8,949 nt of DNA from a bacterium (GTDB taxonomy: Bacteria; JALSQH01): the NCBI GenBank assembly GCA_026985515.1, contig JALSQH010000187.1, positions 1 through 8,949 on the forward strand, in the 5' to 3' direction. Of the stretch, positions 1 through 5,427 are shown piece by piece. The stretch's first letter is position 1. The number at the start of each line of letters is the position of its first letter. The translations under genes and the position numbers were made by a program. The notes under the pieces were generated by a model that was not told the DNA's origin, did not search any database, and saw nothing but the letters and a program-made list of their open reading frames with translations.

Positions 1-225
1 GCTGACGCGATTGTGGCACTGGCTGCAGGATTCGCCATTGGACTGGCTGCCTTTGGAGGCTCTATTGGACAGGGAAGATCCATCTCTTCAGCTCTTGAGG
101 GCATTGCCAGAAATCCAGGGGCAAGTGGGAAAATCACAACACCCATGATCATTGGTCTTGCAATGATTGAGTCACTGGTTATTTACGCCCTGCTCATTGC
201 CTTCCTTTTACAGGCAAAGATTTAA
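1..225 (+). CDS. atpE: F-type ATP synthase subunit c (3' part)
   Basis: This is the membrane rotor subunit of F1Fo ATP synthase; a ring of copies carries ions through Fo. The reading frame is open from base 1, so the N-terminus lies outside the window. The visible 74 residues form the classic hairpin: helix 1 (about residues 4-24), a polar loop with the ARNP signature (36-39), and helix 2 (about 49-70) with the ion-binding Glu57. Gln24, Glu57, Ser58 and Tyr62 have the same spacing as Gln32, Glu65, Ser66 and Tyr70 of the sodium-binding Ilyobacter c-ring (recalled from memory); the Thr67 position is Leu59. This suggests, but does not prove, sodium coupling. A GTG at base 13 is not the start, since the family needs residues upstream of it. 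A strong terminator begins 47 bases after the stop and no other atp gene follows, so atpE appears to end its operon. Confidence 0.95.
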
Positions 226-228
226 TTA

Positions 229-1098
229 ATGGATGGAACCTGGCTGAGAAAAGAAGAATTAAAGAAATCTGAAAGGTTCTTCTACTCTTTCCCCACAGGG
301 GGAGTGGAAGAACCTTTTCTTTTTCCCCTTCTATGTTACAGAGAAAATTCAAATTACTTCCTCCTTGATGGCTGGAAAAGAATATCTCTTCCACTTGAAA
401 AATTCCCTGCTCTCTTCTGGGATGAGGAGGAAAAAACTCCCTCAGAGGCACTTCAAATCTCCATAAAAGCAAATACAATCTTTCGGGGTATCAACAGCAT
501 TGAAAAGGGAAACATTGCCAGAATCGTTTTAAAATACTTTCCAGATGAAGTAAAAAACTTTGCACATCTCCTAAATCTCAACCTGGATGACTTTCACAGA
601 ATTGCCAGGGTAAACCTGTTAGATGATTCTGTAAAGACAATGATATCCCACTGGAAAATTCCTCCAAAGTGGGTGATAAAGATGTGCGAATACCCGGAAG
701 AGTGGAATGAGATCATGGATATAATCAGGGGAATAAAACTGACTTCCTCCCAGATGGTATGGCTGATTGACTCAATGTATGAACTATCTCACAGAACCGG
801 AACTCCACCGTCACAGATTATAAAGGACCTTCAACCAGTTGCAACATTTGAGGATTTACAGAGGAAAATAGAAAGAGTCAGATATCCTGTAATTTCCAGA
901 TACAATGCCATTGTTAGAGAGCTGCAGAAAAAATACCAGGATTCTGCGTTAAGGCTCTCTGTTCCCGAAAATTTTGAAGGTGAAGAAATAATCCTTAATT
1001 TAAGGATAAGAAGCGACGCTGATCTGGAAGATATTAAAAACAGAATTCAGAAACTTCTGGATGAGGAAAAATTGAGAAAGATACTGGAACTGCTGTGA
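229..1098 (+). CDS. ParB-like N-terminal-domain protein, role unknown
   Basis: This 289-residue protein resembles the ParB/KorB/Spo0J fold but is divergent. A segment LLDGWKR (45-51) corresponds to the ParB box I (of the DG.RR type). Residues 78-94, with NTIFR and NSIEKG, resemble box II (ENxxR followed by NPIE). A helical middle part (about 105-195) matches the place of the ParB helix-turn-helix region. The C-terminus (about 205-289) is charged and helical. The second box I arginine and the exact ENxxR spacing are not kept, so CTP binding or hydrolysis is uncertain. No parA or parS-like site is visible, so a role in chromosome segregation is not supported. It starts 3 bases after the atpE stop without a clear Shine-Dalgarno sequence, and a terminator hairpin overlaps codons 15-32. 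The only in-frame alternative before the ParB boxes is GTG at 304, inside the hairpin and also poorly served. Its stop overlaps the next gene's start (GTGA), so the two are probably co-translated. Confidence 0.72.
   Translation: MDGTWLRKEELKKSERFFYSFPTGGVEEPFLFPLLCYRENSNYFLLDGWKRISLPLEKFPALFWDEEEKTPSEALQISIKANTIFRGINSIEKGNIARIVLKYFPDEVKNFAHLLNLNLDDFHRIARVNLLDDSVKTMISHWKIPPKWVIKMCEYPEEWNEIMDIIRGIKLTSSQMVWLIDSMYELSHRTGTPPSQIIKDLQPVATFEDLQRKIERVRYPVISRYNAIVRELQKKYQDSALRLSVPENFEGEEIILNLRIRSDADLEDIKNRIQKLLDEEKLRKILELL
272..324 (+). terminator. Strong intrinsic terminator after atpE, inside the next ORF
   Basis: Bases 272-287 pair with 302-317 over 16 bp, with one G-U pair (283/306). After a three-base bulge (288-290), an apical CCCC/GGGG stem (291-294 with 298-301) closes an ACA loop. 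The right arm runs into a T-rich tract, TTTTCTTTTT (315-324). This is a textbook Rho-independent terminator placed 47 bases after the atpE stop, so it most likely ends the atp transcript. It also lies in codons 15-32 of the downstream ParB-like frame. It would therefore limit read-through into that gene, or the gene's annotated start needs revision. Confidence 0.88.
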
Positions 1099-2183
1099 TA
1101 AAAGAAATTCTGATTGAAAAAGAGGCAGAAATTTATCCATTTACAGAGGAAATAATAAAAAGGAACAGGGGAAAAGTAAAAATTTCCTTTATAGAAAAGA
1201 GAGAAAGGGACCTGTCTTCAGAAAAATGGGGTATCGCAAAGAGAAGATTGCTGTTGAGGACATTTAAGGGGAAATGGGTGAGGCAGTGCCCAGGTACAAA
1301 AAATCTCTTATGCTGCAATTATCTTGTCATAAATCCCGTAGTTAACTGTCCTTTTAACTGTACTTACTGTTTCCTCCAGGGTTATCTTGATGCACCATAT
1401 ATACAGGTTATGGTTAACATTGAAGATCTCTTTGAGGAACTTGACCAGTTTCTCAACAGAAATAGAAATGGAAGATTCAGAATAGGTACCGGGGAAATGG
1501 CAGATAGCCTTGCCCTTGACCGTTACATAGGATTGAACGAAAAACTGATCAGGTTCATCTCCAACTATCCAAATGCTGTCCTTGAACTGAAAACAAAATC
1601 GGCAGATGTTGAGCCACTGCTTAAAATTTCACATGGAAAAAATGTGGTAATTTCCTGGTCACTGGCACCTCTTAAAATTACGAAGGAAGAAGAACTGGGA
1701 ACGGATGATCTTACAAAAAGAATCTCTGCAATGGAAAAAGTTCTGAGGGCAGGTTACATGGTTGGTTTTCACTTTGATCCCATCATCTACTATGAGGGAT
1801 GGGAAAGGGGATACAGAGAAGTCGTAGAAAGCATTTTTACAAAAGTTCCTGAGAGACAGCTTGCCTGGGTAAGTATGGGATCTTTAAGATTTTTTCCTCA
1901 GCATCTTGAGTCTGCAAGGAAAAGATTTCCGCATCACACAATTCTCTTTCAGGAAATGGTCCCTGGTGCCGACAGAAAACTGAGATATCCCAAACCGGTG
2001 CGAATTGAAATGTACAGAAAAATTTATACCTGGATAAAAAGCATTCGACCGGGAGCTTTTATATATCTGTGTATGGAAGGAAAAGATGTATGGAAAAAGG
2101 TGTTTGGATTTGCACCGGAAAATGATGTCAAGGTGGGAGAACTCTTTTTCAGATACTCCGGGGCACTGGTTAACTTTCAATAA
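1095..2183 (+). CDS. SPL-like radical SAM protein (spore photoproduct lyase family)
   Basis: This is a 362-residue radical S-adenosylmethionine protein. Cys85, Cys89 and Cys92 form the CX3CX2C motif that holds the 4Fe-4S cluster, followed by FLQGYL as in spore photoproduct lyase (SplB). Just before it, CPGTKNLLCC (Cys65, Cys73, Cys74) matches a cysteine signature I recall from the non-sporulating SPL-like subgroup; it may bind metal, which is inference. GFHFDPIIYYEGWERGY (224-240) and the C-terminal YLCMEGKDVW (325-334) are also family-like. Aligned from memory to Bacillus SplB, the hydrogen-donor Cys141 falls at about Glu134, so repair of spore photoproduct by the known mechanism is doubtful. 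The substrate is unknown. The GTG start overlaps the preceding stop in a GTGA quartet, implying coupled translation with the ParB-like gene. Its 3' end overlaps the convergent cupin gene by 14 bp. Confidence 0.88.
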   Translation: MIKEILIEKEAEIYPFTEEIIKRNRGKVKISFIEKRERDLSSEKWGIAKRRLLLRTFKGKWVRQCPGTKNLLCCNYLVINPVVNCPFNCTYCFLQGYLDAPYIQVMVNIEDLFEELDQFLNRNRNGRFRIGTGEMADSLALDRYIGLNEKLIRFISNYPNAVLELKTKSADVEPLLKISHGKNVVISWSLAPLKITKEEELGTDDLTKRISAMEKVLRAGYMVGFHFDPIIYYEGWERGYREVVESIFTKVPERQLAWVSMGSLRFFPQHLESARKRFPHHTILFQEMVPGADRKLRYPKPVRIEMYRKIYTWIKSIRPGAFIYLCMEGKDVWKKVFGFAPENDVKVGELFFRYSGALVNFQ

Positions 2184-3513: not shown

Positions 3514-3541
3514 TTGACAATACTGCTCTCATTCATATAAT
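3514..3541 (+). promoter_or_regulatory. Consensus sigma70 promoter of rplM-rpsI
   Basis: A perfect -35 TTGACA (3514-3519) and a perfect -10 TATAAT (3536-3541) are separated by 16 bp. An A-rich stretch upstream (about 3490-3503) could act as a partial UP element. Transcription would start near 3548, leaving a leader of about 23 bases with purine-rich ribosome-site sequence (AAGGAAGGG) before ATG 3571. The leader is too short for a structured L13 autoregulatory leader of the usual kind. Confidence 0.88.
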
Positions 3542-4422: not shown

Positions 4423-5427
4423 GTGGGGAAATATCTAATTGCAATTATTGGAGCCAGTGGATACACAGGCGGAGAACTTCTCCGCCTTTTCTGTTTTCAT
4501 CCAGATGTAGAGGTTGTCTCGGTAACTTCAAGGCAATACAAGGGTAAGAGTGTCTCTGAGGTATTTCCATTCTTAAATGGTTGCTACGATCTCAGATTCA
4601 AATCAATAAGTGAAGTAAAAGATGAGGCAGATTTTTACTTCCTGGCTCTCCCGCACGGTGTGAGTATGCTCCATGCAAGGAAATTCCTTGAATATGGGAA
4701 AGTAATTGACCTTGGAGCTGATTTCAGGCTGAAGGATATTGAAAAATACAGAAAATGGTATGGAGACCATCAGGATACTGACCTGATAAAAGAATCTGTT
4801 TATGGTCTTCCAGAGATAAACAGAGAAAACATCAAAAATGCAAAACTGGTGGCGAATCCGGGATGTTACCCCACCTCTGTGATTCTCGGGACATACCCCC
4901 TTGTAAAAGAAGGAATTGTGGAGGAGCCGGTTATTGTTGATTCAAAATCTGGAGTTACTGGAGCAGGAAGATTCCCCTCACCCAATCTCCATTTTCCTGA
5001 AGTGAATGAAAATTTCAATCCATATAAAATCAACGGGCACAGACATCTTGCTGAAATGGAAGAGCAACTTGGGATCAAGCTTATTTTTACCCCTCATCTC
5101 CTGCCCATTGACAGAGGTATTCTCTCATCCATCTATGCAAAAACAAAGAAAGATGTTACGCTCAAAGAGATTGAGGAAATTTTCCAGAAATACTACGGTA
5201 ACGAAAAATTTGTAAGATTGCTCGGCAACAGAGCCCCACACGTGAAAGATGTGAGGGGGAGCAATTTTATTGACATTGGCTGGGCAATAGATGGTTCCAT
5301 TCTGAAAGTATTTGTCGCAATTGACAATCTGGTTAAAGGTGCAAGTGGGCAGGCCATTCAGAATTTCAACATTATGGCGGGGTTACCCGAAGAAACCGGG
5401 TTGACTTCTCCATCCCTTTTCCCATAA
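4423..5427 (+). CDS. argC: N-acetyl-gamma-glutamyl-phosphate reductase
   Basis: The third enzyme of arginine (acetylated ornithine) synthesis: it reduces N-acetylglutamyl phosphate to the semialdehyde with NADPH. The 334-residue protein has the nucleotide-binding GASGYTGGEL (10-19), LALPHG (74-79), DLGADFRL (97-104), the active-site Cys148 in NPGCYPT (146-152), SGVTGAGR (176-183) and NGHRH (204-208) with catalytic-type histidines. NLVKGASGQAIQNFN (302-316) is near the end. The start is GTG, the first possible start after an in-frame stop at 4417-4419; its ribosome site is weak, the best candidate being AGAGG within the end of rpsI. A terminator-like hairpin overlaps codons 15-22. Placement behind rplM-rpsI is known from Geobacter-type genomes, as far as I recall. 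Confidence 0.96.
   Translation: MGKYLIAIIGASGYTGGELLRLFCFHPDVEVVSVTSRQYKGKSVSEVFPFLNGCYDLRFKSISEVKDEADFYFLALPHGVSMLHARKFLEYGKVIDLGADFRLKDIEKYRKWYGDHQDTDLIKESVYGLPEINRENIKNAKLVANPGCYPTSVILGTYPLVKEGIVEEPVIVDSKSGVTGAGRFPSPNLHFPEVNENFNPYKINGHRHLAEMEEQLGIKLIFTPHLLPIDRGILSSIYAKTKKDVTLKEIEEIFQKYYGNEKFVRLLGNRAPHVKDVRGSNFIDIGWAIDGSILKVFVAIDNLVKGASGQAIQNFNIMAGLPEETGLTSPSLFP
4467..4497 (+). terminator. Terminator-like hairpin (possible attenuator) inside argC
   Basis: AGGCGGAG (4467-4474) pairs perfectly with CTCCGCCT (4480-4487) around the loop AACTT; the symmetry even continues into the loop. TTTCTGTTTT follows (4488-4497). The shape and T-rich tail are those of an intrinsic terminator, though the tail is interrupted. 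It lies 54 bases after the rpsI stop, where an end to the ribosomal transcript would be expected, yet inside codons 15-22 of argC. These codons encode the conserved GGELLRL segment, so part of the symmetry could be coincidence; but CGC (Arg21) is unusual beside the AGA/AGG habit seen here. Confidence 0.55.

Follow-up and report, generated by a model that had tools for sequence, protein, structure and literature searches.

Transcript 3′ ends inside 5′ coding regions have been mapped in E. coli, some of them intrinsic, and they may regulate the gene in which they lie (PMC7815308). In the same organism, terminators that lie no more than 100 bp into an ORF are efficient despite translation: translation of a second ORF took only about 10% off the efficiency of a terminator located 30 bp into it, and stop-less messages went with about half of the upstream gene's expression (PMC4824070). 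A short spacing between stop codon and terminator has been read as RNA polymerase outrunning the ribosomes (PMC7858274).

Here we describe a terminator-shaped hairpin which lies right after atpE, within the first codons of a ParB-like gene. It was found in a window of 8949 bp, which is the entire contig C187 of a draft bacterial genome (268 contigs, about 2.36 Mb). As for the ORF-internal ends of E. coli (PMC7815308), the transcript would end inside a coding region, but those ends were mapped experimentally, while the one considered here is predicted and would also terminate the upstream atp transcript. The terminator tR2 in plasmid W48 (PMC4824070) similarly lies tens of bp past a start codon that closely follows the upstream gene, and its terminated messages lack a stop codon, as would those of the window; that operon is however synthetic and its terminator is from a phage, whereas the window site is natural and predicted. 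As in leader-peptide attenuators (pyrBI, cited in PMC4824070), the position of the ribosome could decide whether the terminator forms, although theirs belong to short leader peptides and none was found at the window site. Ribosome termination structures (PMC7518266) also consist of a stable mRNA hairpin past a stop codon and near the following start, but they are centred 5 nt past the stop, compared with 46 nt here, and do not depend on a T tract. Early in-gene terminators are already known; the window site is unusually strong for one, and a misplaced start codon does not explain it.

Results

Architecture of the locus

The features under consideration are the following.

1–225, forward strand: 3′ end of atpE (ATP synthase F0 subunit c; PF00137, E=4.8e-19); the contig starts inside the gene
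223–225, forward strand: atpE stop codon
226–231, forward strand: TTA codon and ATG start of the ParB-like gene (sequence, start scan, local folding)
229–1098, forward strand: ParB-like gene, 289 aa (family profile E=2e-36; AlphaFold2 pLDDT 90.2; Foldseek to Noc/ParB)
271–287, forward strand: 5′ arm of the hairpin (fold), coding for E15–S20 (ERFFYS)
288–301, forward strand: TTT bulge (288–290) and inner CCCC-ACA-GGGG stem-loop (fold), coding for about FPTGG
302–318, forward strand: 3′ arm of the hairpin (fold and start scan), coding for VEEPF and including GTG 304
315–324, forward strand: T tract TTTTCTTTTT past the G-C-rich core (T-tail score of 4.57 after position 314)
1095–2183, forward strand: SPL-like radical SAM gene (PF20903, E=9.1e-31), overlapping the stop of the ParB-like gene

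The upstream part of the atp operon is absent from the contig, and no sigma-70-like promoter was found on the forward strand before position 452. A search of the genome for the F0 subunit a gene (PF00119) gave no match; this gene is probably missing from the assembly, with the contig breaking inside atpE. Both a tmRNA gene and a Rho gene are present in the genome. Further downstream, a promoter-like site with a perfect TTGACA-16-TATAAT arrangement is located at 3514–3541, upstream of the rplM-rpsI genes.

The hairpin and its T tract

Folding of the region gives a stem of 17 pairs between 271–287 and 302–318, of which 15 are Watson-Crick and two are G-U (271/318 and 283/306), carrying the inner stem 291–294/298–301 with the loop ACA. 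The fold has a free energy of -30.0 kcal/mol over 271–318 and of -25.3 kcal/mol over the core (275–314), which is directly followed, past 314, by TTTTCTTTTTCCCC; the RNA 3′ end is predicted at about 315–324. The hairpin begins 46 nt past the atpE stop and 42 nt past ATG 229. A G+C-rich stem-loop and an adjoining T tract, which together define the form of an intrinsic terminator, are thus both present and support the predicted terminator. The fold, the T tract and the reading frame confirm what the first-pass annotation had seen at this place, namely a hairpin of terminator shape which doubles as codons.

A known RNA family was ruled out, as no Rfam family matches at gathering score anywhere in the window. 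So was a repeated element or mobile hairpin: the hairpin is present in a single copy in the genome and is not found in the related genome. Neither a leader, a pause site nor a supported antiterminator was found at the hairpin locus, where by eye only a weak possible antiterminator pairing can be drawn between AAGAAGAA near 251–258 and TTCTTC at 277–282.

Within the first 110 nt of 53 homologues, the longest stem has 8 Watson-Crick pairs, against 16 in the window. The idea that the ParB-like family conserves the hairpin as a regulatory element was therefore dropped, as 0/53 homologues keep the pairing. Homologues lacking the pairing had been named beforehand as evidence against the terminator; all 53 do lack it, but they are about 20% identical and the upstream genes that were read differ, so that this speaks for lineage-specificity only. 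In the sole further genome from the organism's own family, neither atpE nor a ParB-like or SPL-like gene is detectable. Judged from these sequences, the hairpin looks specific to this lineage.

Strength of the hairpin compared with chance

Terminator-like sites (hairpin and T tract) were scanned on both strands of 1.19 Mb, about half of the genome (L010–L055 and L085–L164). The hairpin is the strongest such site within a same-strand coding sequence (-28.7, compared with -22.2 for the next one) and the second strongest anywhere in this sample. Synonymous resampling of 795 genes over their first 156 nt, repeated 200 times, gave no site that reached -28.7, and 0.015 sites per half genome that reached -25. 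All of the chance estimates for this site are to be read with the fact that it had been chosen beforehand by a reader searching for oddities.

A different picture is obtained when the peptide itself is taken as given. The hairpin codons are all common ones, the peptide (RFFY...VEEP) predisposes to pairing, and 9 of 3000 synonymous versions drawn with the codon usage of the genome have a stem of at least 16 Watson-Crick pairs. The folding energy (MFE) of the native segment has a z-score of only -1.9 relative to synonymous versions, and in 4 of 25 synonymous permutations of the half genome at least one coding sequence holds a site of equal strength. The complementarity had been described as far beyond chance for coding DNA: the scan and the resampling agree that it exceeds chance, while the 9/3000 and the z-score of -1.9 do not bear out "far beyond". 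The hairpin is unusual and its position meaningful, but it is not astronomically unlikely, being a 0.3% event given the protein.

This genome has few strong intrinsic terminators, with 19 intergenic ones counted in 1.19 Mb at the thresholds used, which speaks against the terminator reading. Among genes, 14 terminator-like sites lie within 100 nt of the start, compared with 4.1 expected. Many of these 14 have an alternative start nearby and are probably start-calling errors, from which the gene starting at ATG 229 differs; the enrichment was for this reason set aside as support.

A second and weaker terminator-like hairpin with a T tract is found at the 5′ end of the argC coding sequence (4467–4487), 53 nt past the rpsI stop. 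It codes for the conserved GGELLRL motif and may therefore be driven by the protein.

Coding status of the hairpin segment

ATG 229 shares the frame of atpE and is separated from its stop codon by 3 nt. The RNA around this stop is unstructured according to local folding, and the start scan found no Shine-Dalgarno-like sequence at ATG 229. ATG 229 and GTG 304 are the only in-frame ATG, GTG or TTG codons before position 640 (codon 138), where the next ATG lies within conserved sequence; a start-codon error was accordingly dropped as an explanation. Codon usage over 229–330 gives a frame-0 log-odds of 0.507, above that of 96% of gene starts.

The fold of the protein was modelled using AlphaFold2 with 27 relatives (mean pLDDT of 90.2). 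The family profile finds ParB chains (E=5.9e-26) and the model matches Noc in Foldseek (E=7.8e-6), which points to a Noc/ParB fold with a ParB-type N domain and a helical DNA-binding domain. With Pfam, the window protein alone has no hit, while 24 of the 28 family members hit ParB_N. In the model, strand 1 of the ParB domain falls at residues 4–7, which precede the hairpin, and strand 2 at residues 34–39. Residues 13–22 (KSERFFYSFP) match the beta-1 motif of the family, EDxTFxFTFP, with p about 0.004–0.012 against shuffles, and the FP is positioned 22 residues from the start, compared with about 24–28 in the relatives. The first helix of the N domain (LxxSIxxIGLxxP in the family) is absent from the window protein, whose N-terminal domain is short, and is also mostly missing in the relatives L202 and L006/L061. 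In the model, the hairpin codons (15–32) correspond to a poorly ordered linker between strands 1 and 2 which takes the place of this helix and is where the domain is least ordered, with a pLDDT of about 55 for the hairpin-coded residues 21–30.

Taken together, four lines of computed evidence agree in placing the hairpin segment within the translated part of the ParB-like gene. The profile alignment of the window protein does begin at residue 33, but the earlier statement that ParB similarity starts at the 3′ edge of the hairpin was wrong, given the motif at residues 13–22 and the modelled strand at residues 4–7. The suggestion made with it, that the true start could be elsewhere, is largely excluded by the same ParB-like features, found from residues 4–7 onwards, and by the location of the sole alternative, GTG 304, within the 3′ arm.

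Discussion

We consider it likely that atp transcripts end at the hairpin, which would be an intrinsic terminator nested within the ParB-like gene and would allow a low level of read-through into the ParB-like/SPL-like pair; termination itself, the fraction read through and co-transcription with atpE are what we infer. Most transcripts leaving atpE would end at about 318–326, independently of Rho, while the ParB-like protein would be translated from ATG 229 straight across the hairpin. The ParB-like/SPL-like pair would then be expressed by minor read-through, at a small fraction of atp transcription. There is no usable start downstream before the ParB core, so each full-length mRNA of the pair would be a product of read-through; the full protein cannot come from a promoter located 3′ of the hairpin, and every full-length mRNA must therefore cross it. 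On a terminated transcript, ribosomes that restart at ATG 229 would reach the end of a message lacking a stop codon and have to be rescued by tmRNA, and the missing ribosome-binding site at this codon would limit such wasteful starts.

The intergenic terminators of this genome have a median of 3 nt from stop codon to stem (19 sites), which possibly reflects runaway transcription in this isolated lineage.

The first-pass annotation had raised the possibility that ribosomes restarting at ATG 229 behind the polymerase melt the hairpin, which would make read-through dependent on translation. An atpE stop and an ATG only 3 nt apart in unstructured RNA form an arrangement that favours restarting (PMC7518266), and ribosomes that are close behind the polymerase are able to repress terminators (PMC4824070). 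The hairpin is however located in the first 90 nt of its ORF, where translation lowered termination by only about 10% in a very similar E. coli construct (PMC4824070), the 3-nt spacing of intergenic terminators is a signature of runaway transcription (PMC7858274), and ATG 229 has no Shine-Dalgarno-like sequence; melting by ribosomes is thus less supported, and we regard it as unlikely. The E. coli data on early-ORF terminators and the 3-nt spacing together favour a termination which ignores the ribosome. A chance origin, in which ordinary codons and the amino acids encoded by the two arms (FF opposite EE, R opposite P) produce a pairing that matters little for transcription, appears rather improbable to us, even though it would account for the common codons, for the synonymous versions with an equally long stem (9/3000), for the half-genome permutations with an equally strong in-CDS site (4/25), for a weaker terminator-like hairpin within the conserved argC motif of the same window, and for the lack of pairing in all 53 homologues. 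What it leaves aside is the location right after atpE, the T tract and a strength unmatched in 200 resamplings of gene starts; moreover, a hairpin of such strength is expected to terminate, whatever its origin. We therefore favour the nested terminator both over chance and over the coupling to translation.

Two further explanations were weighed. If the gene were mis-started, with GTG 304 or some non-standard codon as its true start, the hairpin would mostly be atpE 3′ UTR and an ordinary atp terminator. The local profile alignment, which begins only at residue 33, and the resemblance to start errors of many in-CDS terminator-like sites near gene starts of this genome, with their alternative starts, would fit this. 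GTG 304 is however within the 3′ arm, so that a transcript across that arm would still be required, and starting there would drop the modelled strand at residues 4–7 and the beta-1-like motif; codon usage is also strongly coding from 229, and the next ATG (640) is within conserved sequence, all of which makes a mis-started gene very unlikely. The hairpin could also act after transcription, as a 3′-end stabiliser of a processed atp mRNA or as a translation insulator behind atpE, whose product, the c subunit, is required in many copies. Stable structures past stop codons do limit re-initiation (PMC7518266), but insulating structures are centred about 5 nt past the stop (PMC7518266), a zone which is unstructured here, and the stem is 46 nt away, a position by which a post-stop insulating structure was ruled out. 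As a T tract is unnecessary for such a role, and no Rfam family matches, a post-transcriptional function is hardly credible.

If the hairpin terminates, as we favour, it would be a clear natural case of a terminator which cannot be moved out of a gene by re-annotating the start, and, being inseparable from the downstream gene, it would leave the expression of that gene to be set by read-through alone. It would then also provide a natural test of the result obtained with synthetic operons, in which terminators early in an ORF work despite translation and leave stop-less messages. A warning that follows is that terminator-based operon maps and start-codon calls may both look right and yet overlap. 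We are more doubtful about a fuller version, according to which the terminator and a conserved protein domain share bases and are both selected, the terminator occupies the slot of the deleted ParB helix, the gene pair lives on atp read-through, and failed read-through is coupled to tmRNA rescue.

Distribution of the gene pair

The ParB-like/SPL-like pair was also found in four of the five first relatives (L002, L003, L005 and L006). The gene upstream of the pair is glycosyltransferase-like, and not atpE, in L002, L003 and L006. A contig search with the ParB-like protein itself found nothing. Searching contigs with the SPL alignment gave 80 named loci (L166–L245), none of which is closely related; a member of the ParB-like family is present at 41 of them, mostly from Desulfobacterota, KSB1, Aminicenantes and other groups. 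A literature search found no paper covering the pair with all its terms. ParB-like and SPL-like radical SAM genes form an adjacent and often overlapping pair across many phyla, and in some loci labelled Deltaproteobacteria (L168, L175, L200 and others) the ParB-like partner is shortened and lacks the N domain.
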